Part shown: positions 5,150 through 51,287 of the stretch, piece by piece
How the letters are laid out: every line of letters starts with the position of its first letter
How positions within the stretch are numbered: the first letter of the stretch is position 1
Assembly: GCF_034274695.1 (NCBI RefSeq)
Contig: NZ_CP128362.1
Location: forward strand, 4,466,501-4,530,500
Origin: Chitinophaga sp. LS1
GTDB taxonomy: Bacteria; Bacteroidota; Bacteroidia; Chitinophagales; Chitinophagaceae
Direction: 5' to 3'
Length of the DNA stretch: 64,000 bases
Notes under the pieces: model-generated
The model's input: only the letters and a program-made list of their open reading frames with translations
Told to the model about the DNA's origin: nothing
Database searches by the model: none
Position numbers and translations under genes: made by a program

Positions 5150-5887
5150 ATGGATGTTAATGGCGTACAGCTTTTTATTTTTCCGCATGCCGGTGGAAGC
5201 GATTTGTCTTATCGCTCACTAGAACGAAAATTGCAGATAACAGGTACCACATTTACAATTTGTTATCCGGGAAGAGCAAAACGTTTTAATGAGCCATTCG
5301 CAAAGGATGTCCCGTCTTTGGCAAAGGATTGCATGGATATTATTACGCTTAACAGACAACATGATCTGCCGATGGTTTTCCTGGGTCATAGCCTGGGAGC
5401 ACTGGTGGCTTATGAAACAATAAAGTGTTTACGTACATCCGGCTCAGGACTGCCTGAGCTGGTTTTCCTCACCGGCAGAAGCGGCCCTTGTGAAGCTCCC
5501 GTGAACATGGAAAGACACGAATTAGCAGACGGCGAACTAATTACACACCTGTCGGCGATGGGAGGGATTGACCTTAGCCTTCTCACAAATCCTGATTTTA
5601 TTTCTTTTTTTCTGCCCGTAATCAGAAATGATCTGCGTTTGAATGATACCTATAAGTATTGTGAAAGCAACAGATTCGATATTCCATTTGTATTGCTGAA
5701 CGGCAGCAATGATAGAATTGCTGAAACGCAGGCACTGCTTTCATGGCAGAAAGAAACCCTCGGAATATGTATTCATGAATTCCTCGACGGAGGACACTTT
5801 TTTTTGCTTGAATCTCCCGATTTCAGTAAAAAGATAAGTCAGTTTATCCATCGTTATGTTATATGTACTCAATTACCCTACGTCTAA
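5150..5887 (+). CDS. Type II thioesterase of the PKS-NRPS cluster
   Basis: 245 residues with the alpha/beta-hydrolase pattern of proofreading thioesterases (GrsT/SrfD type). F-P-H-A-G-G near 11, nucleophile elbow G-H-S-L-G near 80 (Ser is the nucleophile), and D-G-G-H-F-F-L near 213 supplying the catalytic His. Such enzymes remove misprimed acyl groups from carrier-protein phosphopantetheine arms and so keep the megasynthases active. It is the first unmistakably biosynthetic gene of the rightward block and ends 10 bp before the start chosen for the next PKS. No signal peptide, so it acts in the cytoplasm. Confidence 0.92.
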   Translation: MDVNGVQLFIFPHAGGSDLSYRSLERKLQITGTTFTICYPGRAKRFNEPFAKDVPSLAKDCMDIITLNRQHDLPMVFLGHSLGALVAYETIKCLRTSGSGLPELVFLTGRSGPCEAPVNMERHELADGELITHLSAMGGIDLSLLTNPDFISFFLPVIRNDLRLNDTYKYCESNRFDIPFVLLNGSNDRIAETQALLSWQKETLGICIHEFLDGGHFFLLESPDFSKKISQFIHRYVICTQLPYV

Positions 5888-5897
5888 TTTATCTATT

Positions 5898-8800
5898 ATG
5901 AAGTCAGTATCCCATGAATCACTGAGCAGTCTGCAAAAATCATTTCTCATTATCAGAAACCTCGAAAGAAAATTAAAAGATCAGTTAATCAGTACTGATT
6001 CAATGGAAGAAATTGCTGTTGTTGGGATGGCCTGCCATCTGCCAGGTGGTATTCATACAGTGAACGATTTCTGGAATGCATTGCTGGCGGGAGAAGACCT
6101 GGTAACAAATTACAGCTTGTTAACCCGCTGGCAGGAAATGGAACAAAAGGAATACCTGTTTAATAAATGTATGCCCCATGCCGGATTACTAGATGACATC
6201 ACATTGTTCGATAATGACTTTTTCCATATATCACCGGCAGAAGCCAGATATATAGATCCTCAACACAGACATCTCCTCATGCTTGCACATAAAGCACTCG
6301 CTGATGCAGGCATCCCGGCTGATACACTGAAAGGTTCGGATACAGGTGTCTTTACGGGTATCAGCGCATTTGACTATAGCCTGCACATTATGCAACAGGA
6401 TGAATCCCTGAGAATAAATCCCTATGTATGCAGTGGTAATTCATTCAGTGGTGCCAGCGGACGGATATCCTATTGCCTCGGGCTTCATGGCCCGTGTATC
6501 AGTATAGATACCGCCTGCTCTTCTTCTCTGGTGGCATTACACCAGGCCGCGGCAAGCCTGAGACGCAATGAATGTAACCTCGCACTGGTAAGCGGGGCTA
6601 ACCTCATTTTATCACCCTACCTGCAGGCCAGTCTTACAGAAGCTGGTATGCTCTCTCCCGATGGTCGTTGTAAGGCCTTTGATGATAGTGCAAATGGATA
6701 TGTGCGCTCCGAAGGTTGTATTACTGTTGTACTTAAACGATTATCAGATGCTGAAAAAGATGGCGACCGCATCTATGCCTGTATTAAAGGTTCTGCAGTT
6801 GCCCAGGATGGCGCCAGCGGAGGATTGACCGTGCCCGATCCGGCCAGTCAGGCAAAAGTTATTAAACATGCACTCGCTGCTGCCGGTATGGAAGCCGATG
6901 ATATCCGCTTCGTGGAAACCCATGGTACAGGTACCCCCCTGGGTGATCCTATAGAGGCCGAAGGCCTACACCTCGCTTTCGGAGAACGCCATAACAGGGA
7001 AAAAATAGTGGCCGGATCTGTGAAAAGTAATTTCGGACACCTGGAAGCGGCAGCCGGACTGGCAGGCTTCATGAAAGCCTGCCTGAATGTATACCACAAA
7101 CAAATGCCCCCTTCCCTCCACTTTAACACTCCTAATCATCATATCGATTGGCAACAGATGCCTTTTCATATTAATGCGGAAAAATACCTTTTCAGTAACG
7201 ATAAGAAACGCATAGTTGGTGGTGTTAGCTCATTCGGCTTTACAGGGACAGTTGCCCACTGTATTGTTGCGGAATATCAACATACAGTGGTTGAAAAATG
7301 TATCCCGCCACCAGACTTTCAATTAAAACCCCATTGGCTGGGAAAACTACCCGGCCCTGTTGTTCCTACCGGATATACCGTTAAATGGAAAGAGGTTGAA
7401 CTGGCCACAGATAGAAAACCGGAAAATGATATGGCGTACGTATATGTTGAAACAGATGGAGGCACTCCGGCTTTTCAGAAAACGTTTCTCTCCGGTAAAA
7501 ACGCTTTTTCTATCGCAATAGATCACCTCTGCCGGCTGGAGAATATTTTTTCTACACAACGTTATCAGCAATATTGCCTGGTATACGATCTCAGCGCATG
7601 GATAGAAGAGGATGAAAATGATGAATATACCCTGTCTGCAGCCTTTAAACATATCATTCAACTCTTTCAGACTTTAAAAACACTTTCTTTATCGCCGGGC
7701 GTTATACTTTTTATCACCCGTCAGGGCTTACATGTAAACGGAACTGCACCCTTATATGCATTACAACATAGTCTTGCATCCTTTATCAGATCTGCATCCC
7801 TGGAGTTACAATCCCCTGCCATGCTGGTGCTGGATATACACAATGATCTTCCGGATATGAACTTTATTAATCGCTATGTGCAGCAGTCATATTTCCGGGA
7901 AACAGCCTTTAGAAACAATAAATACTGGTATCCTGTTATTTCACCTGCCACACCGGTACCCCTAATAAAAGTGACATTGGATAATGAAGGCACCTACCTG
8001 GTTACAGGAGGCAACGGAAGCCTGGGTGAACATATCGCCGTTTGGTTGAGGGACAATGGAGCCGGCCAGGTAATAATTACCGGCAGATCTGCAAATGCAA
8101 ACCATAAAAATGATCGTATCATTTATAAACAGCTGGATGTTGCCTGTGAAGAAGACGTAAAAGCATTTGGTAAATGGCTGAAAAGCACTTCTCTGCCGCT
8201 TAAAGGGATCGTACATGCCGCCGGTACAAACAGCCGTTGTTTACTAAAAGATATGACCATAGATGATATGTTGCAGGTGGGAGCTCCCAAGATCAACGGT
8301 ATCAGGTACCTCAGCAGGCATCTGCCGTATGATCAGCTTGATTTCCTGGTAACATATTCTTCCATAGCGGCAATATGGGGCTCTGCCATGCTTGCGCATT
8401 ATGCAGCTGCAAACGCTTATATGGATGCTTTTGTACTCCATTTAAAAACAAAAGGTATTCCTGCTGCAACCATCAACTGGGGACCCTGGAAGAATAGTAA
8501 TATGGTGCTGAAAGATAGTAATACCACCAGCCTGCTGGAAGAATCCGGCGTACTGACTGTGCATGCAGATACTGTTGGAAAAAGTTATGCTTCCCTGCTA
8601 GGCATAAGCCAGGATCAGCGGATTTATGTACAGTTAAATCAATCCCGCTTTTTACAGATGATGGAAATAAGAGGCGCGCAAAGTTACTGGGAAACATTAC
8701 GCGGAATGCTGCAGCAGAAGCCTGTAACAGCAAACAATACTGCTACATTGCCCAACCTGATGCTGATCACAGATGACGCTGAAAGAGCGAGTCTTATTCA

Positions 8801-9140
8801 CCATGAACTGGTACTCCTTGTAAAAGAAGTATTAGTCATTCCGGAAGAAGAGGAGATAGATCCCGCCAGGAGTTTTAGTGATATGGGAATGGATTCTATT
8901 TTACTCCTGAAGTTTGTGGAGAGAATCAATAAACGCCTGGGTACAACAATCACTTCAAATACAATCTTCAATTACCCGGCTACAGGTTTGTTAACGACCC
9001 ACATCAATGAATTATCAACACCGCAACCAGTAACAGTGATAAAAACGGTTAAAGAGAATCTCCGGTATAGTTATACAGAAGATATGAGTGATGCCGAACT
9101 GCTGAAAATGATCAATAAAGAAATTCAAAAATATTCATAA
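5898..9140 (+). CDS. AT-less PKS module: KS-KR-ACP
   Basis: The frame is open from 5856, but ATG 5898 (M-K-S-V-S-H) avoids overlap with the thioesterase, giving 1080 residues. An N-terminal amphipathic helix (about 10-32) resembles PKS docking helices. KS about 34-460 has D-T-A-C-S-S-S (Cys about 206), H-G-T-G-T and N-F-G-H-L-E. A KR structural subdomain follows directly with no AT. The catalytic KR (about 690-880) has T-G-G-N-G-S-L-G, Y-S-S-I and H-Y-A-A-A-N, so the Ser/Tyr/Asn set is present; the LDD signature of B-type KRs is missing. ACP about 960-1040, phosphopantetheine Ser in G-M-D-S-I (about 998). It should add one ketide unit and reduce it to a beta-hydroxyl. No DH or ER. Malonyl must be loaded in trans. 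Confidence 0.92.
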   Translation: MKSVSHESLSSLQKSFLIIRNLERKLKDQLISTDSMEEIAVVGMACHLPGGIHTVNDFWNALLAGEDLVTNYSLLTRWQEMEQKEYLFNKCMPHAGLLDDITLFDNDFFHISPAEARYIDPQHRHLLMLAHKALADAGIPADTLKGSDTGVFTGISAFDYSLHIMQQDESLRINPYVCSGNSFSGASGRISYCLGLHGPCISIDTACSSSLVALHQAAASLRRNECNLALVSGANLILSPYLQASLTEAGMLSPDGRCKAFDDSANGYVRSEGCITVVLKRLSDAEKDGDRIYACIKGSAVAQDGASGGLTVPDPASQAKVIKHALAAAGMEADDIRFVETHGTGTPLGDPIEAEGLHLAFGERHNREKIVAGSVKSNFGHLEAAAGLAGFMKACLNVYHKQMPPSLHFNTPNHHIDWQQMPFHINAEKYLFSNDKKRIVGGVSSFGFTGTVAHCIVAEYQHTVVEKCIPPPDFQLKPHWLGKLPGPVVPTGYTVKWKEVELATDRKPENDMAYVYVETDGGTPAFQKTFLSGKNAFSIAIDHLCRLENIFSTQRYQQYCLVYDLSAWIEEDENDEYTLSAAFKHIIQLFQTLKTLSLSPGVILFITRQGLHVNGTAPLYALQHSLASFIRSASLELQSPAMLVLDIHNDLPDMNFINRYVQQSYFRETAFRNNKYWYPVISPATPVPLIKVTLDNEGTYLVTGGNGSLGEHIAVWLRDNGAGQVIITGRSANANHKNDRIIYKQLDVACEEDVKAFGKWLKSTSLPLKGIVHAAGTNSRCLLKDMTIDDMLQVGAPKINGIRYLSRHLPYDQLDFLVTYSSIAAIWGSAMLAHYAAANAYMDAFVLHLKTKGIPAATINWGPWKNSNMVLKDSNTTSLLEESGVLTVHADTVGKSYASLLGISQDQRIYVQLNQSRFLQMMEIRGAQSYWETLRGMLQQKPVTANNTATLPNLMLITDDAERASLIHHELVLLVKEVLVIPEEEEIDPARSFSDMGMDSILLLKFVERINKRLGTTITSNTIFNYPATGLLTTHINELSTPQPVTVIKTVKENLRYSYTEDMSDAELLKMINKEIQKYS

Positions 9141-9141
9141 G

Positions 9142-12100
9142 ATGATGGAAAATATTGACCTTGTCAGGAAGTTATACGAAAGCCTTAGAACGGCCGAAGC
9201 AAAAATTGAATCCCTGGAGAAAAAGGAAAATGGTCCCGTGGCTATAGTTGGCATGTCCTGTCGTTTTCCAGGTGCGGACAGTATAGCCTCATTCTGGAAT
9301 AATCTGTGTAATGAACAGGATGCTGTGATTGAAGTACCGGCAGATCGCTGGAATAAAAATTGGTTTTATGATAAAAATCCTGATACACCGGGTAAGTCCT
9401 ATTGTAACAGTGGCACTTTTTTAGCCGATGTAAAAGGATTTGATGCTGCCTTTTTTAAAATTACTCCTGCAGAGGCAAAACATATGTCTCCACAGCAAAG
9501 AATATTGCTGGAAACAACCTGGCAGGCGCTGGAATCTGCAAATATCCGCCCAGGAAGCCTGATGGGCACCGGTACAGCTGTATACCTCTCCGCGTCAGAC
9601 GATCATTATAAATATTTTTCAACAGAAAATTACGGAAAAGGGATATCTCCTTATTCTGTTACAGGTACTGCTGCCGCTACTGCCAGCGGAAGAATTGCTT
9701 ACCAGTTAGGACTAACCGGAGCCAATATGGTCGTGGATACGGCCTGCTCATCCTCTCTTGTAGCTGTAGATCTTGGTATGCAGGAATTACGGGCCGGCAA
9801 AACAGACCTCGTGATTGCAGGTGGCATCAACCTGCAGCTTTCTCCCTTAGGGCATATTTGTCTTTCTAAAACAAGAGCATTATCTCCCGATGGCCGTTGC
9901 AAAACATTTGATGAAAGTGCTGATGGATATGGGCGCGGTGAGGGATGTGGTATTGTTATCCTGAAACGATATGAAGATGCCGTAAGAGATGGGGACCATA
10001 TTTTCTCCATCATCAGGGGATCTGCATTAAACCAGGATGGTGCCAGTAACGGGATGACTGCACCAAACGGACTGGCACAGGAGAGATTGCTGCATACAGC
10101 ACTCGAACAGGCCGGTGTTTCTGCCAGTGAAGTACTATACCTGGAAGCACATGGTACCGGTACCAAACTGGGCGACCCGATTGAGGTAGAAGCCATTCAA
10201 CACGTATATAACAAAATACCGCGGCAAGATCACCCGCTTTATATAGGAAGTGTTAAAACCAATATTGGACATCTGGAAGCCGCTTCCGGTGTAGCTTCCC
10301 TGATAAAAACAGCTTTATGCCTTTATCATGGAAAAATACCCGCCAGCCTGCACTATAATTCACCCAATCCCGCTATCAGCTGGAACGACCAGGTAAAAGT
10401 AGTTACTACCCTTACGGATCTACCTGCCGGTGCATCCGGATTTGCTGCCGTGAGTGCTTTTGGTTTTAGCGGAACAAATGTGCATATGGTATTGCAATCA
10501 GCACACAAAGCAAACCAGGGAAAACAAACCGATGAGGCAACCCTGTTAATGCTGTCTGCAAAATCTGTAAGATCCTTAAAAAAACTGGTAGAAACATATG
10601 TGCTTTACCTGAAGGATACAACATATGCAATCACGGATATTGCATTTACCGCATTACATTGCCGGGATCATTTTGAAGAGAAACTGGCAGTTATTGCCAC
10701 TGATAAACAGGCTGCTATCCAACTCCTGCAATCATTTAATACTACAGAGAGACTGCTGGTAGCCCCTGGTGTGGATACAACAACATTGTTGAAAGAAGCA
10801 CATACTTACCTGCATTCTAAAATAATCACCCCGGGTGCATTTTCAATACAGGGCACAAAAGTACCCATACCGGTTTACCAGTTTGATCATGAGATGTACT
10901 GGATTGATGCCGCTTTATACCGCGCATTTATTAACCCGGAACAGGAGGAAACCACTATGGCACTTGCCGCTGAAGTGAAAAATGCTTCGGCAGAATCATT
11001 GTCATTGTATGTAAACAGGATCATCCGTGAGATTACAGAACTAAGTACAGACGCCTTTACCGACGAAGATGATTTTTTCAGTATTGGTCTTGATTCTATC
11101 ATGTTGATGCACATGCGGGAAATGATCCTGGATGATAAACATATCAATATTGAAATTGCAGTATTCTACGACCGGGTCAATACACCTGGCAAACTAAAGG
11201 AATTCCTGCAGGTTTCTTTGCCGGCAGACGCTTATGTGGAGGAACGTGCTGATGATAATGCCTATGTTCCATATAAACAACCGGAAGTTAGTACAGATCA
11301 GAAACTGAATGAACAGGATGAGGCACTGGTGGCACTGGTGAATGAGGTTGTGGAGAAAAGCGGAGGATCCCGTGAGATAACACAACACTTCCGCCGCTAT
11401 TTTGCCAATAACAGGAATATTGCCGGCTTCAAACCGAAGTGGAAGGATATGGTGTATCAACTGGTGGCAGAAAAAGGCGCCGGCGCACATATATGGGATG
11501 TAAATGGCAATCGTTTCCTGGACTTTACAATGGGATTTGGAGTACACCTGTTTGGTTATAATCCTCCTTTTGTGAATGAAGCCTTACAGGATATATTACA
11601 GCGTCAGCTGATATTAGGAGCATTATCTCCCCAGGCAGGCCGGCTCGCAGAAAGGATCTGTACAATCACGGGGAATGACCGTGTGGCATTCTATAACACC
11701 GGTACAGAGGCCGTAATGGTAGCACTTCGTTTGGCAAGGGCAGCTACCGGTAAAAATAAGATTGTCCTTTTCTCCGGTTCCTATCACGGGACTTTTGATG
11801 GCATCCTGGCCAGACCTGGAAAAGGAATTTATGCCGAGCCTCTGGCACCCGGCGTAAGCAACACCGTTAGCCAGGATGTAATTGTGCTGCGGTATGGTAA
11901 TGAACAGGACCTGGAACATATTATCACATTGGCAGGCGAAATAGCCGCTGTATTGGTAGAACCTGTGCAGAGCAGAAGACCGGATTTCTTTCCGGCAGCA
12001 TACCTTGAAAAACTGTCGCGCATTACTTCCGCCAATAACATTGCCCTGATCTTTGATGAAGTAATATCCGGATTCAGATTCGCTATCAATGGCATTCGTG

Positions 12101-14019
12101 CTTTTACAAAGGTTCGTCCGGACCTCACCACTTATGGAAAGATTATAGGAGGTGGAATACCGGTGGGCATTGTAGCCGGGAATAAGAGATTTATGGATGC
12201 AGTCGATGGTGGTCACTGGTCGTATGGTGATCCTTCTTACCCTGCAGTGACCAATACATTTGTGGCTGGTACCTTCTGCCATCATCCGCTGGCCATGGAA
12301 GCCGGAATGCAGGTGCTGGATTACCTGGAAGCAAATCCTGATATCTATATATCACTGGAAGAAAAAACAGCACAGATCTGCAGTGAATTAAACAGGTATT
12401 TTGAAGAGAAAGATCTTCCGGTAAGTATGGTTCATTTCGGATCGCTTTTCCGGTTTGTTCTCAAAGGAAATTATGAACTGCTTTTTTATAAACTGCTGGC
12501 AAAGAATATTTACATATGGGAGGGGAGGAACTGTTATGTGGCAACTGCACATACCCAGGAAGATATCCGCTATTTTATTGATGCAGTGAAGCAAAGTTTT
12601 GAAGAGTTACTGGCCGCACAACTGATCCGTACAGAAGTACCGGTAGTTAATACAAGGCTTTCCTATGCACAACAGAATATCTGGTGGGCCTGGAAATTAC
12701 AGCCTGATTCATCCGCATTTAATCTTTCAGAAACGCTGCTGATTGAAGGTCCATTCCTTCCTGCAAAATTTGAGGAAGCATGTAACCTACTGCTTCAGAA
12801 GCATGAAATTCTTCGCATGTCCTTTTATGAGGAAGATGGGATACCCCGGCAGCAACTGCGCACAGATGCCCGTATTATGCTCAGCGAGATCTTTTTACCG
12901 GAAGACGAATCAGCAGCAGAGAAAGTATTATTTGAGTTGAACAGCCAGCCATTTAATACTGCCAATGAATTATTATGGAGAGTCTCTGTATGCCGGCGTG
13001 GAGAGGACCGTTATATCGTATCGGTAACCATCCACCATATCATCTGCGATGGCTGGTCAATGGAAATTTTGTTCAATGAGCTGATCGATACCTATAATGA
13101 ACTGACAACAGGTAATAAAAAAGATCCATCACAGCCTATTCAATACCGTCAATATATAGAAGAAGAACAAAATACAGCCACCAATGAACAGCTGAAATCT
13201 TTCTGGCATCGCCAGGTAAGTAACATAACCCCGATGAATATGCCGGCTGTAACAGGTAGTCAGGGAAAAGGCGAAGAAACGCTTTTAATAAGCGGTGTAA
13301 TGTATTCACAAATTAAGCAACTGGCGGCTGATCTGAACCTGAGTGTATTTATTGTAGTAGCCGCCGTTACACAATTGTTATTACATTGTTATACCGGCGC
13401 CACAGATCTCACTACAGGAACACCTGTTACAGGTAGAAGTAAAAATAAATGGAACAGGCTGATAGGCCACTTCCTCAATATACTGGTATTACGTATTGAT
13501 ATCAGGAGTGAAGAAAGCGCAGTTAATTTTCTCAACCGGCTTAAAACCCTGCTGCTGGAGATGTATGAAAAGCAGGATTATCCCTTTGAACTGTTGAAAA
13601 ATGAATGCTGGGACCGTAGCAGTACATTCCCATTCTTTGAAGTGGAAATTTCACTGCAGAACTTCCGGTTAAAACGCCATCATAATGACCGGAAATTTAA
13701 TGATCTCACTGTTCGCCCTTTAGGTGGAAGCCTCTCCATAGATCCAAGAAAATATCCAATGGAGTTCCGCTTTGATGAAGGTCATGAAGATATTATGCTG
13801 AAACTGGTCTATGATAGTACGCTATATCCTGATCTGCTGATACAGGAAATGATCAGCGACTGGCAACAACTGCTTGAATTACTTATAGACCAGCAGGATC
13901 AGGCAATTGGAGCACTCATTGCATCCATCAGAGAAATGCAACAGCAAAGAAAATCAAATGCCCTTCAGACACACCGCAAAAAGAATATCACCGGCCTTTT
14001 ATCCAACAAAATACCCTAA
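9142..14019 (+). CDS. PKS-NRPS bridge: KS-(AT remnant linkers)-ACP-aminotransferase-C
   Basis: 1625 residues. KS about 30-455 (D-T-A-C-S-S-S, Cys about 202; H-G-T-G-T; N-I-G-H-L-E). About 470-540 is a typical KS-to-AT linker and about 585-600 (P-I-P-V-Y-Q-F, then Y-W-I-D) a typical post-AT linker, but the AT core is missing. ACP Ser in G-L-D-S-I about 651. A class III PLP aminotransferase spans about 770-1150, with I-F-D-E-V-I-S-G-F near 970 and the PLP Lys in T-Y-G-K near 1000. A condensation domain with H-H-I-I-C-D-G near 1298 ends the protein. This is the architecture of the iturin/mycosubtilin starter: the beta-keto thioester is transaminated to a beta-amino acyl group and condensed with the first amino acid. 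Two ATGs (9142, 9145) are possible; the stop of the previous gene is 1 bp upstream. Confidence 0.93.
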   Translation: MMENIDLVRKLYESLRTAEAKIESLEKKENGPVAIVGMSCRFPGADSIASFWNNLCNEQDAVIEVPADRWNKNWFYDKNPDTPGKSYCNSGTFLADVKGFDAAFFKITPAEAKHMSPQQRILLETTWQALESANIRPGSLMGTGTAVYLSASDDHYKYFSTENYGKGISPYSVTGTAAATASGRIAYQLGLTGANMVVDTACSSSLVAVDLGMQELRAGKTDLVIAGGINLQLSPLGHICLSKTRALSPDGRCKTFDESADGYGRGEGCGIVILKRYEDAVRDGDHIFSIIRGSALNQDGASNGMTAPNGLAQERLLHTALEQAGVSASEVLYLEAHGTGTKLGDPIEVEAIQHVYNKIPRQDHPLYIGSVKTNIGHLEAASGVASLIKTALCLYHGKIPASLHYNSPNPAISWNDQVKVVTTLTDLPAGASGFAAVSAFGFSGTNVHMVLQSAHKANQGKQTDEATLLMLSAKSVRSLKKLVETYVLYLKDTTYAITDIAFTALHCRDHFEEKLAVIATDKQAAIQLLQSFNTTERLLVAPGVDTTTLLKEAHTYLHSKIITPGAFSIQGTKVPIPVYQFDHEMYWIDAALYRAFINPEQEETTMALAAEVKNASAESLSLYVNRIIREITELSTDAFTDEDDFFSIGLDSIMLMHMREMILDDKHINIEIAVFYDRVNTPGKLKEFLQVSLPADAYVEERADDNAYVPYKQPEVSTDQKLNEQDEALVALVNEVVEKSGGSREITQHFRRYFANNRNIAGFKPKWKDMVYQLVAEKGAGAHIWDVNGNRFLDFTMGFGVHLFGYNPPFVNEALQDILQRQLILGALSPQAGRLAERICTITGNDRVAFYNTGTEAVMVALRLARAATGKNKIVLFSGSYHGTFDGILARPGKGIYAEPLAPGVSNTVSQDVIVLRYGNEQDLEHIITLAGEIAAVLVEPVQSRRPDFFPAAYLEKLSRITSANNIALIFDEVISGFRFAINGIRAFTKVRPDLTTYGKIIGGGIPVGIVAGNKRFMDAVDGGHWSYGDPSYPAVTNTFVAGTFCHHPLAMEAGMQVLDYLEANPDIYISLEEKTAQICSELNRYFEEKDLPVSMVHFGSLFRFVLKGNYELLFYKLLAKNIYIWEGRNCYVATAHTQEDIRYFIDAVKQSFEELLAAQLIRTEVPVVNTRLSYAQQNIWWAWKLQPDSSAFNLSETLLIEGPFLPAKFEEACNLLLQKHEILRMSFYEEDGIPRQQLRTDARIMLSEIFLPEDESAAEKVLFELNSQPFNTANELLWRVSVCRRGEDRYIVSVTIHHIICDGWSMEILFNELIDTYNELTTGNKKDPSQPIQYRQYIEEEQNTATNEQLKSFWHRQVSNITPMNMPAVTGSQGKGEETLLISGVMYSQIKQLAADLNLSVFIVVAAVTQLLLHCYTGATDLTTGTPVTGRSKNKWNRLIGHFLNILVLRIDIRSEESAVNFLNRLKTLLLEMYEKQDYPFELLKNECWDRSSTFPFFEVEISLQNFRLKRHHNDRKFNDLTVRPLGGSLSIDPRKYPMEFRFDEGHEDIMLKLVYDSTLYPDLLIQEMISDWQQLLELLIDQQDQAIGALIASIREMQQQRKSNALQTHRKKNITGLLSNKIP

Positions 14020-14030
14020 TAATATTCGTT

Positions 14031-15050: not shown

Positions 15051-15061
15051 TTATTTATACA

Positions 15062-22456: not shown

Positions 22457-22468
22457 GTATCGTCATTT

Positions 22469-26830: not shown

Positions 26831-26832
26831 CG

Positions 26833-32946: not shown

Positions 32947-32960
32947 ATAAAACTGAACAG

Positions 32961-34793: not shown

Positions 34794-34799
34794 TATTTT

Positions 34800-41513: not shown

Positions 41514-41520
41514 AACTATC

Positions 41521-41558
41521 CTTTTTTACCAGCCCTGTATTGGGGCTGGTAAAAAAAG
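41521..41558. terminator. Bidirectional intrinsic terminator between the convergent biosynthetic blocks
   Basis: 41521-41535 (C, six T, ACCAGCCC) pairs with 41543-41558 (GGGCTGGT, A-run, G) around a 7-nt loop. It ends in an A/T tract on both strands. It lies 7 bp after the terminal NRPS stop and 11 bp from the carbamoyltransferase stop, so it serves both operons. Confidence 0.85.
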
Positions 41559-41568
41559 ATAAGTTTGA

Positions 41569-43308: not shown

Positions 43309-46300
43309 TATACGGTATATGCGTTTAACAGGTGGGCTATTTCTTCATCTGAAATCCGGCTGATTTCTTCAATCAGGGACACCGGCGTAATAGTTAAATC
43401 TTTGAACAGATGATCTGCAAGTAATGATAGTGACGGATATTGAAAAAAGTGTGATATCGGGATTTGAATACCTGTAGTGGCGGTAATACTGTTTTTAAAT
43501 TTATTCAGCATCAGGGAATCAAAACCTGTTTCAAAATATGGTCTGTCTGTATTCAGGTATTCATCCGCTCTTAATCCAAGTATCTCCCTGGCAGTTTTCT
43601 CCAGCAGTTTACGCATGCCGGCTTTGTCCGTGGGTATTGTATATGTTGTGGATGGTTCCTTTTTAATGCTCACCCAATGAGCAGGAATGTAGGGGTGCAG
43701 CCATCCGGGAAAAGATTGTATGGCTGTAGCCGGTTGTACATCAATAATGGCATATACAGGAGCTGTATTGATTATACTTTCCATTGATTGCAGGGCTTCG
43801 GAACCTTCAAAAGAACGGATACCCAGTTGTTCAAATTGTGCAGTGAGTCCGGCAGTCATAGCAGAATGCTGCCATGGGCCCCAGCAGATACTTGTGCAGG
43901 GGAGTTGTCTTTCCCTGCGGTAACAGGCCAATGCATTCAGGAAGGAATTAGCAGCAGCATAATTGCTTTGTCCTGTATTACCCAGTAAGGACACGGTGGA
44001 AGAAAAGAGTATAAAGAAATCCAGTTGCCAGTCTTTACTTAACCGGTGTATATTCCAGGCACCCTGAACTTTTCCTGGAAATACCGGTGTAAAGCTTTCG
44101 GGTGTATGTGAGATCAGTAATTTATCGCTTAAGGTACCTGCCGTATGCATCACGCCTGTAATGGGAGGAATGGAGGTTGTTGCCAATAATCGGGCAAATT
44201 GTTCCTGGTCACTGATATCACAACAAAGATAAGTAATGATACATCCTTTACTTTGCCATAGTTGCAACTGTTGATGTTGTATATCCGATAAGGTACTTCT
44301 GCCGGTAATTACAATATGTGTAGCACCTTTCTGTATCAGCCATGTTACTACCTGTTTACCAATACTGCCCATTCCACCGGTCACAAGGTATGCTTTGCCT
44401 GACTGAATGATCAGTTCTTTTTGTGGTTTATTTCCAGACACTGACTGCATAGTTGGTACGAACCATTTACCATCCCTGATAACCAGTTGTAATCCCAGTT
44501 GATTAAGATGTTTGGAAATAGCTGTAAAAGCGGGTTCGTAATTCAGTTCATTTACATCAATGATGCTCACCGGCAGGTAATCCAGCTCAGTTTTCAGGGA
44601 AAGAAAGAAACCCCATAACATGCTGCCGCTGAGATTGACAAGTGTATTTTCCTGGTGTACATTATTGGTAACAATGATCAATCGTGTGTTGTTTGTATGA
44701 TTGATCTTTTCTATCAGGGGCAGCATATTCAATACTTCCTGCTCACTGATGAGAGGTAACTCTTCATCAAAAGGGTTGGACAGATAACAGACTGTGGTAT
44801 CTGCAGGTATGAGAGGAATAGCTGAAATGTGGGCCGTAAGCGCGGTAATACCCTGTATGGTGAGCTGGCGTCGCCAGTTGAGAGCAGTTGCCTTCAGTTC
44901 ATCATACAATATCAGCATCGAAGTGATGGTTGTCTGCTCTTCCGGTAGTAAAGCTGTTACAGGTGAATAAACAACTTCCTGTATGTTCCGGTTTTCAGCA
45001 ATATGTTTAACCGGCAGGGGGGATGCCTGGGATCTTCCTGACGTCAGCGGCAACCAGTATGCTTGTTTCAGAAAAGGATAAGTTATTACCGCCTGCTGAC
45101 GTAACTGAAATCCGGGTTCCCCGGTTTTCCAGTTGACCTGTATGCCGGATTGTTGAAGTAGTGCAAGGCTTTCAAGGAATTGTTTTACGGCAGACTTCCC
45201 TTTTTTGAGTGAAGGAACAGCATCCGTTGTTTGCAGTGGTAACCCTTTCACCATATTGGTTAATATGGGGTGGGGGCCAATTTCCAGGCAGATCGTACAC
45301 CCGGTTTCCTGTAATGTTTGAAGGGAATCCATATATCTTACAGGTTGCAGCATATGTTCAGACCAGTAGGCAGGATCGGCTTGTTGTTCTGTAGTAAGTA
45401 GTTGCCCTGTTATATTTGAAATAACAGGAATGGTGGTTGTATAAAAAGGGATGTGTTTTGTTGTTTCAAGTAAAGATATTGCAGCTGGCTGCATGAGAGG
45501 TGAGTGGAAGGCATGGGATACATTCAACGGAAAGCAAAGAATATCCTGTTGCTTCATGTATACCCTCAGTTTTTCCAGTTGATCTGTTGTTCCTGAAACG
45601 ACGGTTTGCTCCGCGGTATTCACGCCGGCAATATGTAACTGAAAGTTTTGTGCAGCTATCAGTTCCCTGGCTTTTGCTTCAGGGATCTGTAATGAAAGCA
45701 TACCGCCACCTGCCGGTAATTCCTGCATCAGGCGTGCTCTTTCACTCACGAGTTGAATGCCACTTTCCAGGGAAAATAGTCCGGCCATGCAGGAGGCGGC
45801 AATTTCACCAATGCTGTGGCCAAGTACGATGGATGGCGTAATACCAAAGCTTTTATAAAGAGCAGACAATGCGTAGGACAGGCAGAAAAGAGCTGGTTGG
45901 GTAAACCGCGTCTGATCTATTCGTTTTTCCGGGTCATCCTTTAAAATGATCTCTGTAATGGATATTCCGTTATTGTATAAACGAAAGATCCGGTCGCATT
46001 CGTCTAAAACATTTCTGAATACGGGATAAGCTTCATATAGTTCTTTTCCCATGCCGGAATATTGAGAACCCTGCCCGGTAAACTGGAAAGCCAGCAGTGG
46101 TTGTAGCTGTTTTGTTTTGTGTACCTGACTGGCCTCAAATGTTTTTAATGCACTCAACAGTTGTGTTTTGTTATCTGCAACACAATACCAGTGGTATGCC
46201 AGCAGGTGGTTTCTCCTGTTTAAATTATAACAGCATTCACCAATACTATCCTGTTCCTGCTCCAGGGCAGAAAGTAATATGTCAACCATCTCCTGCAATG

Positions 46301-49300
46301 TATCCGGTGTGTGTGCAGATAAGGTGCATATGTAACTGCTTCTGACAGGTGGTACGGAGGTAATCAGCTCAGGGGATTCAATTATCAGATGGGCATTTGT
46401 GCCGCTGAAACCAAAGGAACTGATTCCTGCCATCTTTTTTTTGCCGGCGGGCCAGTCTGTGGGTTCATTGACAACTTTTATATTACCTGTTTCCCAGGGG
46501 ATAAGCGGGTTAGGTTTGTTGAAATGTAAATCGGGTGGCAGTATTCCGTGTTTGAATGATAACAGGACTTTTACCATTGCGGCAATACCAGCTGCCGACT
46601 CCAGATGGCCGATGTTGGATTTCAGGCTGCCAATAAGCAGGGGATATTTTCGCTGTCCGGGTTGATAGGTCTCCAGGATGGCCTGTACTTCCAATGGATC
46701 GCCAAGTGGGGTACCGGTGCCATGTGTTTCGATATAACTGACTTCTTCGGTATCGATTCCTGCCGTCTGGATGGCTTTGCTGAGTAACTGACGCTGTGCA
46801 ACAACGTTAGGAGCAGTAAGGCCGTTACTTTTCCCATCCTGGTTCACAGCAGAGCTTCTGATGATCCCTGATATTGTATCACCATCTTCAAGTGCTTTAT
46901 CCAGCCGTTTGAGTACAATCATGGCACAACCTTCTCCACGTCCGTATCCGTCAGCATCTGCATCAAATGTTTTACACCTTCCGTCAGCAGCCAATGCCTG
47001 TATTTCTGAAAGTGCAATGGTGGTTTCCGGTGTGAGGATGAGGTTTACACCGCCGGCAAGGGCCATTGAACAATCTCCGGATTGCAGGCTCTGACAGGCA
47101 TAATGTACGGCTACGAGAGAGGAGGAACAGGCGGTATTGATCACGATTGCGGGACCGCTGAGGTCAAAGAAATAAGACAACCGGCCTGCCGCAGTGCTGG
47201 TCATTGTACCTGTGAGTGAGTAGGGATCAATCTTTTCCGGATTGTCTGCATACATATGTGCACGTACATATTCACTATGACTCAGTCCCACGAAAACGCC
47301 GGTATCTGTATTGCGGATTTCGGGAAGGGTATATCCTGCATTTTCCAGGGCAAGGAAAGTCGTTTCAAGTAGCATCCGTTGCTGGGGATCCATAGATACT
47401 GCCTCCTTTGGAGATATACCAAAGAAGCCGGCATCAAATAGTTCCGGATGGGAGGTATAACTTCCCAGGTTGGTCAGCACGTTGCCCTGGCCTTTTTGTT
47501 CCCCGGGTTTAAACTGCTCCACATTCCATCTTGCTGCCGGTATTTCTGCTACGGGGTCAATGCCATTCATCAGCATCTCCCATAATTTTTCAGGATTATC
47601 AGCATTTCCGGGGAAGATTCCGTTCATACCGATAATAGCAACCGGTTCAAAGGTTGCCGGCTTTACCGGTGAGGATACGATATTGTTTTGTGTAGTGTTT
47701 TCGAGGTATTCCGCCAGTTTATAAATGGTAGTATATTCAAATACGATGGTAGGTCTGAGTGAAAGCCCGGTGATGTTGTTTAGCCTGTTTATCAGTTCGG
47801 TGCTTTTCAACGAATCAAATCCGAGATCTGTCAATGGCTGATCATACTGTATATCCGGCATATTGCATAATGCGGATATCAGTTCCTTCAGCAGTGGCAG
47901 ATATTTTTTATGAACGGGTGGATGATGCTGTATTTTTTTCTGCGCAATATATTCATCTGCCAGTTTAGTGCGTTGCAGTTTACCACTGGTAGTTTTCGGG
48001 ATACGGCCTATCTGCACTACATCTTTTACAATTAATCCGAAATGTTGCAGGATAATATTCCTGGCTTCTGCTGCAATGGGAAGGAATTGTTCTTCCGGTA
48101 GCCTGGATTGTACAAAAATAACGAGGGCTTCACTGTTTGTTTCATCCGGCACGCCAACGGCAGCTGTTTTGGTAATGGGAAAAGCCTGGTTGTTTTCGCT
48201 ATCCAGTACCCGTTCCATATCATAAGGATAATAGTTAAGGCCGTTAATAATAATAACTTCTTTTTGTCTTCCTACAACGTACAGGTCTCCATCATGAATA
48301 AATCCGGAATCACCTGTCATTATCCATCCATCAGGCGAAAACAGTTGATCGTCGGGGCATTTATAATAACCTGCTGTTATAGCCTGTCCTTTCAACTCAA
48401 TCTGTCCAACCCATCCATCACTTAATACCTGGTGTTTTTCATCACAGATCCTGAAGCTTGCATAGTTAACGGCTTTACCGCAGGCTACGATTTCCAGTGA
48501 GTTTTCAGTTGTTTCCGTTACAAATTCAACGGCACAGCCTTCTTTTATACTTAACCTGTTTGCAAATACAGAAATGATGGGAGCCTGCAGTCTGTGAGAA
48601 CTAACGATCAGGGTGGCTTCTGCCAGACCATACGAAGGTCGTATTACGGTACCGAGGTGTTGATCTTTCAGTGATGCGGCGAAATCATCTACAATAGGTT
48701 TGGATATTTGTTCTGCTCCATTATAGATCACTTTCATACAACTGAGATCCCAATCAGGATTGTGTTCTCTTGCCTTATATTCCTGGAGGAAGTATTTAAA
48801 ACCGAAATTCGGGGAATAGCTGATTGTTGCCCTGTGCTGGTGGGTTTTTTCCATCCAGATCATGGGATTCCGGATAAACAATGTGGTAGGGATTACTACA
48901 AGATTGAGGCCTCCCAGTAGGGCCGTGAAAAAACAGCCTATCAGCCCCATGTCGTGCGTAAGTGGAAGCCAGCAAATAATTGTATGGTCAGCCGGCGTAC
49001 CGCCTGAAAGGGTCAGTATTGCATCTGTATTATGTAACACGTTGGAATGAGACATCATTACCCCTTTCGGATTACCCGTAGAGCCGGAGGAAAACTGCAG
49101 GTAGGCTGTTTCATCCGGTGCCGCATTTGTATTTATGGTGTTTGTTGTTTCTTCAAATTCATCCGGCCAGAAAAGCAGGGATGGCTGAATTTGCTGCCAC
49201 CATATTTTATCTGCTTCATGATGATCAGTAAAATATTGGGCCAGCCTGGTAGCTGTAGCATTATTGGTAAACAGGAATGGTTTGTGCATGATCTGCCAGG

Positions 49301-49619
49301 CATTCCTGATCTTTTGCTTGTGTTCGTGCTGGGAACCGGTAGCCAGTGGAACGGCAATAATACCGCCCAGGATGCAGGCGATAAGTGCTATAAGATATTT
49401 TTTATTATCCTCCAGCTGGATAATCAGCTCGTCTCCTTTACGAATGCCGTTTGCAGTAAAATATCCTAGTAAAAGCTGTGCTTCCTGCACAAACTGTCGA
49501 TGCGTAACTACCTCCTCCTGTCTAGTCCCTGAAACAAAAATAATTTTCTGGTCTGATAACAGGGTACGCTGCAGTAGCACCTCGTTGATATTGGATAATT
49601 GAGAAAAGTGCTGATACAT
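43308..49619 (-). CDS. Loading PKS: FAAL-ACP-KS-AT-KR-ACP
   Basis: 2103 residues. Fatty-acyl-AMP ligase about 1-560 (S-S-G-S-T-G-N-P-K-G near 175, W-L-P-L-T-H-D-M-G-L typical of FAAL) activates a free fatty acid and loads ACP1 (G-F-D-S-L near 603). KS about 660-1090: N-T-A-C-S-S-S near 830, H-G-T-G-T, N-I-G-H-L-E. AT about 1175-1470: F-T-G-Q-G-S-Q, nucleophile G-H-S-I-G-E near 1265, and H-A-F-H near 1368, the malonyl-CoA signature. KR about 1740-1930: T-G-G-M-G-S-I-G, F-S-S-T, N-Y-A-A-A-N; L-S-D suggests B-type. ACP2 Ser in G-F-D-S-L near 2035. It should make a beta-hydroxy acyl chain two carbons longer than the starter and pass it to the KS-KR-ACP protein on the other strand. This is the only AT in the cluster. 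Confidence 0.93.
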   Translation of the reverse strand: MYQHFSQLSNINEVLLQRTLLSDQKIIFVSGTRQEEVVTHRQFVQEAQLLLGYFTANGIRKGDELIIQLEDNKKYLIALIACILGGIIAVPLATGSQHEHKQKIRNAWQIMHKPFLFTNNATATRLAQYFTDHHEADKIWWQQIQPSLLFWPDEFEETTNTINTNAAPDETAYLQFSSGSTGNPKGVMMSHSNVLHNTDAILTLSGGTPADHTIICWLPLTHDMGLIGCFFTALLGGLNLVVIPTTLFIRNPMIWMEKTHQHRATISYSPNFGFKYFLQEYKAREHNPDWDLSCMKVIYNGAEQISKPIVDDFAASLKDQHLGTVIRPSYGLAEATLIVSSHRLQAPIISVFANRLSIKEGCAVEFVTETTENSLEIVACGKAVNYASFRICDEKHQVLSDGWVGQIELKGQAITAGYYKCPDDQLFSPDGWIMTGDSGFIHDGDLYVVGRQKEVIIINGLNYYPYDMERVLDSENNQAFPITKTAAVGVPDETNSEALVIFVQSRLPEEQFLPIAAEARNIILQHFGLIVKDVVQIGRIPKTTSGKLQRTKLADEYIAQKKIQHHPPVHKKYLPLLKELISALCNMPDIQYDQPLTDLGFDSLKSTELINRLNNITGLSLRPTIVFEYTTIYKLAEYLENTTQNNIVSSPVKPATFEPVAIIGMNGIFPGNADNPEKLWEMLMNGIDPVAEIPAARWNVEQFKPGEQKGQGNVLTNLGSYTSHPELFDAGFFGISPKEAVSMDPQQRMLLETTFLALENAGYTLPEIRNTDTGVFVGLSHSEYVRAHMYADNPEKIDPYSLTGTMTSTAAGRLSYFFDLSGPAIVINTACSSSLVAVHYACQSLQSGDCSMALAGGVNLILTPETTIALSEIQALAADGRCKTFDADADGYGRGEGCAMIVLKRLDKALEDGDTISGIIRSSAVNQDGKSNGLTAPNVVAQRQLLSKAIQTAGIDTEEVSYIETHGTGTPLGDPLEVQAILETYQPGQRKYPLLIGSLKSNIGHLESAAGIAAMVKVLLSFKHGILPPDLHFNKPNPLIPWETGNIKVVNEPTDWPAGKKKMAGISSFGFSGTNAHLIIESPELITSVPPVRSSYICTLSAHTPDTLQEMVDILLSALEQEQDSIGECCYNLNRRNHLLAYHWYCVADNKTQLLSALKTFEASQVHKTKQLQPLLAFQFTGQGSQYSGMGKELYEAYPVFRNVLDECDRIFRLYNNGISITEIILKDDPEKRIDQTRFTQPALFCLSYALSALYKSFGITPSIVLGHSIGEIAASCMAGLFSLESGIQLVSERARLMQELPAGGGMLSLQIPEAKARELIAAQNFQLHIAGVNTAEQTVVSGTTDQLEKLRVYMKQQDILCFPLNVSHAFHSPLMQPAAISLLETTKHIPFYTTTIPVISNITGQLLTTEQQADPAYWSEHMLQPVRYMDSLQTLQETGCTICLEIGPHPILTNMVKGLPLQTTDAVPSLKKGKSAVKQFLESLALLQQSGIQVNWKTGEPGFQLRQQAVITYPFLKQAYWLPLTSGRSQASPLPVKHIAENRNIQEVVYSPVTALLPEEQTTITSMLILYDELKATALNWRRQLTIQGITALTAHISAIPLIPADTTVCYLSNPFDEELPLISEQEVLNMLPLIEKINHTNNTRLIIVTNNVHQENTLVNLSGSMLWGFFLSLKTELDYLPVSIIDVNELNYEPAFTAISKHLNQLGLQLVIRDGKWFVPTMQSVSGNKPQKELIIQSGKAYLVTGGMGSIGKQVVTWLIQKGATHIVITGRSTLSDIQHQQLQLWQSKGCIITYLCCDISDQEQFARLLATTSIPPITGVMHTAGTLSDKLLISHTPESFTPVFPGKVQGAWNIHRLSKDWQLDFFILFSSTVSLLGNTGQSNYAAANSFLNALACYRRERQLPCTSICWGPWQHSAMTAGLTAQFEQLGIRSFEGSEALQSMESIINTAPVYAIIDVQPATAIQSFPGWLHPYIPAHWVSIKKEPSTTYTIPTDKAGMRKLLEKTAREILGLRADEYLNTDRPYFETGFDSLMLNKFKNSITATTGIQIPISHFFQYPSLSLLADHLFKDLTITPVSLIEEISRISDEEIAHLLNAYTV

Positions 49620-49628
49620 ATCGATTGA

Positions 49629-51287
49629 CTATTTTGAAATAATTTTACCATATTCCATTTCTATAATCCTATCGAATTGTTCTGCATATTTATCATCATG
49701 AGAAACCATCATAACCGTCTTCCCTCTTTGACGCAGGGAGGATAGTATTTCAAGGTAATAGAACTTTTTAAACTCAGGATCCTGGTCCGCCGTTACCTCA
49801 TCCAGGATCATAACGGGGTTATCTTCCAGCAACACACATATTAAGGCCAGCCGTTTGCGCTGTCCGGTGGATAATCTTACATTGCTGAAATTTAATCCCT
49901 CGAAATGTGTTTTATGTGAAAGAGCCATCAGGTTGATATACTCATTTACTTTTTCTTCGTTGAGGTCTTTCACACCATATATCTTTGGAAACAGGTGGAA
50001 ATCTGTAAAAATAGCGGAGAAAACGGACCTGTATTCTTCATTGTCATAAAGAGAAATATCTTTTCCATTATAAAGAATCCGGCCGGAGCTGGGATGATAG
50101 AGATTGGTAAGTACTTTCAGCATGGTTGATTTTCCACTTCCGTTACCACCTACAATACATACCAGTTCACCTTTCTTTAAAACAAGATCAATAGGGCCTA
50201 AAGAAAAGGAAGATTGATTTTCCTCATCTATATATTCATAACAAACTTTCTCCAGCCTCAGCTCCTCAAAAGGAGGGAGTGGTTGTTTCTTTTGAGTGGT
50301 ATCATTATTCCGTAATGATTGAATCTTGTTTTCCAGTTGTTGTATGTTCTTAGTAGCGTGGATAGCTTTAATGAACAGGGGAATAGTGGTGACAATATTT
50401 TCCAGTGGTCCTATAATGAACAGGATAGATGCTGTAAGGCGGGTGAGGGTACCGGCATACAATGTAAGGAATTGCGGGAGTAAAAATACTACACATGCCA
50501 GTAATAAATAAAATACTATTTCGGAAAACATGAATCCTACTGCGAAGTGTAAACCGTTTTTTACTTTGTTATCTTTTCCTTCCAGTGCAGTTTGTTTAAT
50601 GTCAAAATATAATTGTTCATTTTTTAATGAACTTATTTTTATTTCCTTAAATCCTTCCACGAGGTTTTCTATATGATCATAGAATGCGGCTTCATTCCTA
50701 TTGGTCAGCATCATTGCCTCATTCACTTCTTTTTGTCTTCTGAAATAATAGGTGACCGCTATCACCAGCACCAGGATGGTAACGAGGAAAGCGGTGACAG
50801 AAAGGATCGCAATATAAATTAATGCAAAGAATACAAGGATGGCTGCCTGAAAGCCATTGATGATCATTGCCGCCGATTGAGAAATAAAGTTGGTGTCGTT
50901 GGAAACACGTGTAAAGATCTGGTCCTTCCCGATAGATTCCATGGATGATAAATCACATTGCCGCAGTTTATTCAGTATTCGCAATCTGAGGTTATATACA
51001 GAGTTCTCGACAATCTCAACAGATTGCCGCAGAATATACCTTTTAGTAATGAAAAATATAAGTAACGCAACGCCAAAGGCTATCAGGTAGCGGATATTTA
51101 CGGTACCTTCTCCGGCTGAATTGGCCGCACTGTTTAGTGTGGATAATAAAATTGCATTAACAAGTCCAGATACTATCGTATTAAAGATGATCGTCTTTTT
51201 GGGAATATCAGCATGCTGGAGAATCATATTGGCGTAGATCTTGAATCCACTCATTTTACCAGCATCATTTTTCTTTTGATCAGGCAT
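49629..51287 (-). CDS. ABC transporter of the cyclic-peptide export (SyrD/PvdE) type
   Basis: 552 residues with fused membrane and ATPase domains. The N-terminal region (about 25-330) has roughly six hydrophobic helices. The ATPase domain (about 345-552) has Walker A G-G-N-G-S-G-K-S-T near 379, the signature L-S-T-G-Q-R-K-R near 472, Walker B V-M-I-L-D-E near 490 and the H-loop S-H-D near 530. The L-S-T-G-Q signature and single half-transporter form match exporters of lipopeptides and pyoverdine precursors, which work as homodimers in the inner membrane. It is the first gene of the leftward operon, 9 bp before the FAAL-PKS start, so product export is the natural role. Periplasmic maturation, as in pyoverdine, is possible but no periplasmic enzyme is visible. 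Confidence 0.9.
   Translation of the reverse strand: MPDQKKNDAGKMSGFKIYANMILQHADIPKKTIIFNTIVSGLVNAILLSTLNSAANSAGEGTVNIRYLIAFGVALLIFFITKRYILRQSVEIVENSVYNLRLRILNKLRQCDLSSMESIGKDQIFTRVSNDTNFISQSAAMIINGFQAAILVFFALIYIAILSVTAFLVTILVLVIAVTYYFRRQKEVNEAMMLTNRNEAAFYDHIENLVEGFKEIKISSLKNEQLYFDIKQTALEGKDNKVKNGLHFAVGFMFSEIVFYLLLACVVFLLPQFLTLYAGTLTRLTASILFIIGPLENIVTTIPLFIKAIHATKNIQQLENKIQSLRNNDTTQKKQPLPPFEELRLEKVCYEYIDEENQSSFSLGPIDLVLKKGELVCIVGGNGSGKSTMLKVLTNLYHPSSGRILYNGKDISLYDNEEYRSVFSAIFTDFHLFPKIYGVKDLNEEKVNEYINLMALSHKTHFEGLNFSNVRLSTGQRKRLALICVLLEDNPVMILDEVTADQDPEFKKFYYLEILSSLRQRGKTVMMVSHDDKYAEQFDRIIEMEYGKIISK

Follow-up and report, generated by a model that had tools for sequence, protein, structure and literature searches.

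What does the hybrid assembly line of Chitinophaga sp. LS1 make, and what is the role of a hydroxylase fused to an aldolase-fold domain beside its aspartate module? We analyzed a stretch of 64,000 nucleotides (the window; contig NZ_CP128362.1, positions 4,466,501 to 4,530,500) from this single-contig 8.67 Mb genome, which carries a cluster of polyketide synthase (PKS) and nonribosomal peptide synthetase (NRPS) genes. With a probability that we put at roughly one half (0.52), this hybrid system makes an exported beta-amino lipoheptapeptide with three modified Asn or Asp (Asx) residues, in which the Asp at position 6 is converted to an aminomalonyl residue; the product is probably cyclic. An earlier note on this DNA had stressed a likeness to the iturin synthetases of Bacillus. 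That likeness is partial and of less interest, and the finding worth testing is the fusion enzyme together with the link between interface domains and Asp.

A TauD domain fused to a NovR-like domain

The fusion gene (32961..34793, + strand) joins a TauD domain (about 33093-33980) to a class II aldolase-fold domain (about 34053-34775), and lies 10 bp upstream of the Asp module (module 6). In all 36 aligned fusions, residues H127, E129, H321 and R330 of the TauD half and H466, H468 and H530 of the aldolase-fold half are invariant. The same 36 proteins have lost the two E. coli FucA residues that we take to be catalytic: Glu73 is replaced by V, T or I, and Tyr113 by Gln. Judged by its residues, the aldolase-fold half is not an aldolase; it combines the class II aldolase fold with the three-His site of NovR, CloR and TqaM. 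The nearest solved chains by sequence are 4xxf, NovR, 3ocr and TqaM, and the segments of 4xxf, NovR and TqaM that align with VNVAGF likewise contain no Glu. In a predicted model of the fusion (mean predicted local distance difference test 86), the best fold match of this half is NovR (1.2 Å over 240 columns), followed in order by 4xxf, the pyruvic oxime dioxygenases (PODs; 1.5-1.7 Å), 3ocr and TqaM (2.0-2.9 Å), with FucA at about 3 Å.

What reaction might such a domain carry out? CloR and NovR are described as three-His iron oxygenases that turn an alpha-hydroxy acid into a shorter acid by oxidative decarboxylation (PMC13111500), and TqaM as converting 3-amino-2-hydroxy-3-methylbutanoate to 2-aminoisobutyrate (PMC11880133). 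Viewed from its side chain, whose carboxylate is free, beta-hydroxy-Asp is a 3-amino-2-hydroxy acid. The fusion thus appears to join a hydroxylase that would make beta-hydroxy-Asp to an oxygenase that would be able to consume it, and it is on this ground that we predict aminomalonate. We infer this and every other chemical step proposed here from the genes. The TauD half would form beta-hydroxy-Asp on the carrier of module 6 (T6), and the aldolase-fold half, as a three-His iron oxygenase of the NovR/TqaM kind, would decarboxylate the side chain to leave an aminomalonyl residue. Such a route would explain why the fusion pairs with Asp modules and a plain TauD precedes the Asn modules here. NovR/CloR and TqaM share the fold and the three-His metal site but are single proteins acting on small free acids, whereas the window enzyme is a hydroxylase fusion in an NRPS cluster. 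The proposed chemistry, from Asp through beta-hydroxy-Asp to aminomalonate, is that reported for SmaO/SmaX in a graspetide (JACS 2025, 147, 20909, as cited in PMC13097080); SmaO and SmaX are two proteins acting on a ribosomal peptide, unlike the fusion, and are likened to it by chemistry. A literature search, with subscription papers largely outside its reach, returned no paper that describes a fusion of this kind within an NRPS cluster.

How closely is the fusion tied to Asp modules? Both domains are present in 74 of the 120 matches listed, out of 1383. All 14 organism-named fusions among the matches listed are from Bacteroidota, as are all 10 fusion loci among 80 kept loci. Each of the 22 fusion loci has, within the fetched stretch, a module in which an inactive condensation-like domain (C*) precedes an adenylation (A) domain with the code DLTKxGHxGK, where C* was called by pattern as having neither HHxxxD nor HHxxxN, partial domains included; in 17 of the 22, this module starts 0-20 bp 3ʹ of the fusion. 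Furthermore, the fusion TauDs cluster, 22 of 22 falling in a clade of 23 (support 0.824) that is separate from this cluster's stand-alone TauD and its orthologues, and the 70 single-TauD control loci contain no separate aldolase-fold gene of the fusion kind. We rejected the idea that the fusion is a general feature of the family: one search found it in 1 of 294 genomes (the window's own), and another gave matches in 3 of 395 (the window's own, G618 and G736), that in G736 being an open frame of just 288 aa and probably no fusion. Among the 79 Chitinophaga genomes searched, two beyond the 10 that hold the cluster carry only a different type of fusion. G353, a genome of the same species as the window, contains two additional TauD-aldolase fusions (G353:C13 and G353:C240) in other NRPS clusters, without counterpart in the window genome.

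Inactive condensation-like domains at the Asx modules

C*, a full-length condensation (C)-like domain lacking HHxxxD, opens exactly the three Asx modules, 1, 3 and 6. In NRPS1 (15062..22456, +), it lies at about 15074-16276 and reads PSGIVDF in place of HHxxxDG; in NRPS2 (22469..26830, +), at about 22469-23698, the motif reads PAVYLDS; and in NRPS4 (34800..41513, +), at about 34812-35984, it reads NPLAADV. Modules 2, 4 and 7 have C domains with an intact HHxxxDG and no C*. The inactive domains are extra, since the C domains with HHxxxD at the ends of PKS module 3, NRPS1 and NRPS3 can serve modules 1, 3 and 6, respectively.

Is the pairing of C* with Asx general? We surveyed 297 C-A pairs, drawn from the window and the fusion loci and also from 70 control loci with TauD and three clusters of C. 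eiseniae, and collapsed them to 184 groups at 70% identity, leaving out 16 with partial codes and 4 with gapped motifs. A broken C domain precedes the A domain in 32 of the 58 Asx groups, as against 3 of the 106 others (Fisher p 7e-15), and one of those three has DATTIGEVGK, an Asx-like code. In a tree of 243 C domains, 40 of the 41 broken ones form a single clade with no active member (support 0.944). This clade spans Bacteroidota, cyanobacteria, acidobacteria, actinobacteria, Chloroflexota and proteobacteria, and includes C* domains beside TauD genes of other phyla, as well as a Flavobacterium piece preceding an Asp module. BamB (Tyr) and BamC (Ser) of bacillomycin D synthetase also open with C-like pieces lacking HHxxxD (profile positions 187-424 and 187-417 of 431); these correspond to the C-terminal half of a C domain and lie outside the C* clade. 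On that ground we rejected them as interface domains, together with the half-C pieces of the Spirosoma, Chryseobacterium and G618 Asn modules.

The C* domains fit the description of "interface" domains, for which antiSMASH 8 credits Reitz 2019 (PMC12230676): they are C-family domains without HHxxxD, found with a TauD gene at Asx modules, as judged by motif, clade and pairing. The interface-dependent siderophore beta-hydroxylases (classes as in PMC12971057) likewise have a TauD beside a C-family domain without an active site at Asp modules; the window cluster differs in that Asn modules are involved too, and in that one hydroxylase is fused to a NovR-kind oxygenase. The stand-alone TauD gene (14031..15050, +; Pfam TauD) lies directly upstream of module 1, and its product forms a clade of its own with its orthologues (10 of 10, support 1.0). 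We propose that Fe/2-oxoglutarate hydroxylases are brought to modules 1, 3 and 6 by the interface domains there, with the stand-alone TauD making beta-hydroxy-Asn at modules 1 and 3. A single assembly line would then offer a clean test of interface domains that choose between a plain hydroxylase, at the Asn modules, and the fusion, at the Asp module.

A wider proposal is that the TauD-NovR/TqaM-type fusion, a bifunctional enzyme so far found only in Bacteroidota, docks on NRPS Asp modules via an interface domain and removes one carbon from the Asp held on the carrier, as a general aminomalonyl route in several different Bacteroidota peptide clusters. We put this forward tentatively, at a little short of even odds. 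If it is true, dozens of fusion genes named class II aldolase, ribulose-5-phosphate epimerase or TauD family are carbon-excising oxygenases, and the fusion clusters make aminomalonyl peptides that structure predictors would call Asp. Aminomalonyl is a barely known NRPS building block.

Several observations weigh against the aminomalonyl reading. A distance of 5.6-12.9 kb separates the fusion from the C*-Asp module in 5 of the 22 loci; three of these five (Spirosoma, Chryseobacterium and G618) have a closer Asn module that opens with a C-like piece, and the fusion may serve Asn there. Half of the loci (11 of 22, those of the window and of Mucilaginibacter included) represent a single orthologous cluster, which lowers the number of independent cases. 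The C-A survey was drawn by TauD homology and is not a random sample of NRPSs, and C is intact in 22 of its 45 Asp groups. BamB and BamC show that a module opening with a C-like piece that lacks HHxxxD need not be an Asx module. The best PDB sequence match of the aldolase-fold half, 4xxf, was deposited as an L-fuculose 1-phosphate aldolase; the aldolase-fold group includes decarboxylases and adducins too; and the model (predicted template-modeling score 0.53) does not fix how the two halves sit relative to each other. An aminomalonyl residue may lose CO2, in which case Gly might appear in the peptide. Lastly, loading of the module 5 carrier (T5) in trans, perhaps with Ser from the A domain of module 4, is a guess.

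The predicted lipopeptide

A Pfam/domain scan of the window recovered, at the same positions, all genes and domains that the earlier note had listed. The earlier note had not listed the two TauD dioxygenases, the three inactive C-like domains, a carbamoyltransferase, a type II thioesterase and a cyclic-peptide exporter. The four NRPS genes encode seven thiolation (T) domains, six A domains, one epimerization (E) domain after module 3 and a terminal thioesterase (TE). NRPS1 is organized as C*-A(Asn)-T-C-A(Tyr)-T-C, and NRPS2 as C*-A(Asn)-T-E, with the E domain (motifs ESHGRS and FNYLGQ) at about 25466-26788. NRPS3 (26833..32946, +) reads C-A(Ser)-T4-C-T5-C, module 5 lacking an A domain, and NRPS4 reads C*-A(Asp)-T-C-A(Thr)-T-TE, with the TE at about 40863-41510.

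The ten Stachelhaus positions, taken by alignment, are DLTKIGEVGK, DASTIAAVCK and DLTKIGEVGK for modules 1 to 3, DVWHFSLVDK for module 4, none for module 5, and DLTKFGHIGK and DFWNIGLVHK for modules 6 and 7. By the specificity tables, we take these to mean Asn, Tyr, Asn, Ser, no A domain, Asp and Thr. As a control, the same script was run on the annotated bacillomycin D genes (NZ_CP083716.1), and gave DLTKIGEVGK, DALSVGEV-K, DLTKIGEVGK and DVQFIAHV-K for modules 1 to 4, and DAKDLGVVDK, DVWHFSLIDK and DFWNIGMVHK for modules 5 to 7, consistent with Asn-Tyr-Asn-Pro-Glu-Ser-Thr. (These genes lie, with biotin genes, on an 807 kb record labelled as a B. velezensis plasmid, which may be a piece of the chromosome.) The earlier note was right to describe seven T domains with a predicted Asn-Tyr-Asn-Ser-x-Asp-Thr and a final TE. 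The carriers would add, in turn, Asn, Tyr, D-Asn, Ser, a trans-loaded residue on T5, Asp and Thr.

Does module 5 contribute a residue at all? Its A domain is absent in all 10 Chitinophaga clusters that we found, which would suit a module that is skipped to give a hexapeptide, an outcome otherwise compatible with the aminomalonyl reading. We consider skipping unlikely, if still a serious prospect: all 11 orthologues retain the T5 Ser (T5 at about 31336-31548) together with HHxxxD in both C5 and C6, as expected for trans loading, and in Mucilaginibacter the orthologous module 5 does have an A domain. For the same reasons, module 5 has probably lost its A domain in Chitinophaga.

The acyl chain is expected to come from three PKS modules. 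The starter protein, FAAL-ACP-KS-AT-KR-ACP (43308..49619, -; Pfam), combines a fatty acyl-AMP ligase (FAAL), acyl carrier protein (ACP) domains, a ketosynthase (KS), a ketoreductase (KR) and the only acyltransferase (AT) found in the cluster. Module 2 (KS-KR-ACP; 5856..9140, +) has intact KS Cys/His/His, KR YAAAN and ACP Ser motifs, and module 3 (9142..14019, +) reads KS-ACP-aminotransferase-C, with the aminotransferase (AMT) at about 11374-12606; both are without AT. A motif scan found the Cys and His motifs in all three KS domains, YAAAN in both KR domains, GxDS in the PKS carriers and YGKIIGGG in the AMT. A fatty acid would be loaded by the FAAL and extended in three ketide rounds, two with a KR and the last with the aminotransferase, to a 3-amino-5,7-dihydroxy acyl chain; PKS module 3 would make the beta-amine and hand the chain to NRPS module 1. 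Two proposals of the earlier note hold up here, namely that FAAL/PKS modules with an aminotransferase provide a beta-amino acyl starter for the seven carriers, and that two extra ketide rounds predict the 3-amino-5,7-dihydroxy chain. Among the sets compared, the KS domains nearest to those of the window, outside the orthologues, are in a Burkholderia arboris cluster (NZ_CP101526.1), an unannotated hybrid with a FAAL, three KS, an aminotransferase and a TauD gene. In C. eiseniae, a separate NRPS cluster (G007:C24:280000-319499) opens with KS-AT-AMT-C, another beta-amino acyl starter in the genus.

After release by the TE, a hydroxyl of the product would be carbamoylated and the product exported by the ABC protein. 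The carbamoyltransferase (41569..43308, -) matches Pfam Carbam_trans_N/C, and the cyclic-peptide export ABC transporter (49629..51287, -) scores 334.9 bits against TIGR01194 (cut-off 286.2). Paenibacillus roseus has an NRPS with Asn-Asn-Ser codes next to a TauD gene and two genes of the carbamoyltransferase-like kind.

Chitinopeptins and the fate of beta-hydroxy-Asp

Might beta-hydroxy-Asp be kept rather than shortened? All three beta-hydroxy-Asx residues could remain in an iron-binding lipopeptide, with the aldolase-fold half only assisting, structurally or stereochemically. Beta-hydroxy-Asp is a known siderophore ligand (PMC7100376), and many of the 70 control loci have a TauD followed by C*-Asp but no fusion. 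The chitinopeptins, isolated from Chitinophaga in 2022, have three beta-hydroxy-Asp residues and bind iron, and chitinopeptins A and B carry a 3-amino fatty acyl group, according to PMC9248904. However, the three metal-binding His are invariant in 36 of 36 fusions, and a passive domain would not need them. Furthermore, a Pfam scan found no TonB receptor among the 21 window proteins, and the presumed chitinopeptin cluster contains neither a TauD nor a fusion. We therefore regard an unshortened Asp as doubtful, and prefer the aminomalonyl residue.

The chitinopeptins of C. eiseniae and C. flava share with the predicted product the genus, the 3-amino fatty acyl group and beta-hydroxy-Asp, but have 14-15 residues, and the same source ascribes their hydroxylation to a CmlA-like route. 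In C. eiseniae, the presumed chitinopeptin cluster has 14 A domains and three Asp codes, none of them preceded by C*. The window cluster, with six A domains, falls well outside the 14-16 A-containing modules of a chitinopeptin type. We considered the chitinopeptins as a product test of the fusion and rejected them as such: the C. eiseniae fusion sits on an 18.7 kb contig, apart from that of the presumed chitinopeptin cluster, and hence the known compounds say nothing about it.

Alternatively, the aldolase-fold half could act as a genuine retro-aldolase, splitting beta-hydroxy-Asp into Gly and glyoxylate, or as an epimerase that inverts the hydroxyl carbon. Its Pfam and NCBIfam class is indeed class II aldolase/adducin, and 4xxf bears an aldolase name. 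We judge this improbable, given the loss of Glu73 and Tyr113 in every aligned fusion and a sequence and fold much nearer to NovR, POD and TqaM than to FucA or AraD.

Comparison with iturin synthetases

How far does the likeness to iturins go? We compared the KS, AMT and A domains with those of iturin genes by pairwise identity, and the layout with that of bacillomycin D (bamDABC). Both clusters have a FAAL-ACP-KS-AMT-C starter, Asn-Tyr-Asn as the first residues, Thr as the last and a TE. Hence the likeness claimed in the earlier note stands for starter logic, the seven carriers and the first three residues; it fails for the E domains, the AT arrangement, the number of KS domains and the kinship of the A and KS domains. 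Bacillomycin D synthetase has seven A domains, the window cluster six. The former has one KS and a stand-alone AT (BamD), the latter three KS, one cis AT, two KR and no stand-alone AT gene. In bacillomycin D, modules 2, 3 and 6 each have a tandem pair of C-type domains, which we read as E, as opposed to the one E of module 3 here, and the window adds the TauD, the fusion and the carbamoyltransferase.

Module transfer from Bacillus, which the earlier note had entertained, finds no support in the peptide part: the A domains are 31-41% identical to their best matches in bacillomycin, versus 46-53% for the Mucilaginibacter orthologue, and the two Tyr pockets are not the same (DASTIAAVCK here, DALSVGEV-K in bacillomycin). 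On identity, we reject a recent Bacillus-to-Chitinophaga transfer of this part. For the Ser and Thr A domains, the best non-orthologue is BamC (41%). The KS domains are 41-42% identical to that of bacillomycin and nearer to Burkholderia and Planktothrix KS domains among those compared. The AMT is 55% identical to that of Paenibacillus, 52% to BamA and 45-47% to two other Bacteroidota AMTs; because it is nearer to the former than to the latter, old shared ancestry of the starter part with Bacillus/Paenibacillus is possible. An iturin relative with an iturin-like ring and stereochemistry, formed by module transfer or close convergence, is very improbable: Asn-Tyr-Asn at positions 1-3, Thr at 7, the FAAL-KS-AMT starter and the AMT identities favor it, but A and KS identities point outside the iturin group, and the lone E domain, the three KS and the missing stand-alone AT are all at odds with it. 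Nor is the match as striking for a distant phylum as the earlier note had held, since beta-amino lipopeptides are already known in Chitinophaga from the chitinopeptins (PMC9248904), and C. eiseniae has the KS-AT-AMT-C starter as well.

Conservation and neighboring genes

The twelve cluster genes occur in the same order in 10 of 79 Chitinophaga genomes, counting that of the window itself and a second genome of this species (G353; 40 kb fetched, starting inside NRPS1, so that counts there cover NRPS1 onward). Pocket codes are identical across these 10 clusters except for one V/I difference in module 2. A Mucilaginibacter metagenome-assembled genome shares the gene order but differs in the code of module 4 and in having an A domain in module 5. 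The recurrence of gene order and codes argues that the cluster is not a chance assembly.

A type II thioesterase gene (5150..5887, +; Pfam Thioesterase) precedes PKS module 2. Two conserved neighbors lie upstream of it: an SPFH/Band 7 gene (3467..4345, +; Pfam Band_7) and a DUF697 gene (4377..4928, +; domain scan). The SPFH gene adjoins the cluster in Mucilaginibacter (51% identity) and in 3 of 9 Chitinophaga orthologue stretches, those reaching far enough (56%). The DUF697 gene is found in Mucilaginibacter (61%) and in 7 of the 9 (66-98%), the stretches of G319 and G353 starting too late. Both proteins may possibly protect against a membrane-active product.

At the other edge, an IS110-type transposase gene (52052-52942) adjoins the cluster just past the exporter. 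A fatty acid desaturase (53578-54564) has an N-terminal match to sphingolipid Delta4-desaturase. We rejected it and the genes past 53 kb as cluster members: of ten other orthologue stretches, that of Mucilaginibacter among them, they occur only in those of the two nearest relatives, G347 and G353, the latter ending shortly after the desaturase region. The genome of the window has two more NRPS regions (G000:C1:6830907-6888625 and 7915651-7952377), the second with two C-domain matches in frames that contain internal stop codons.

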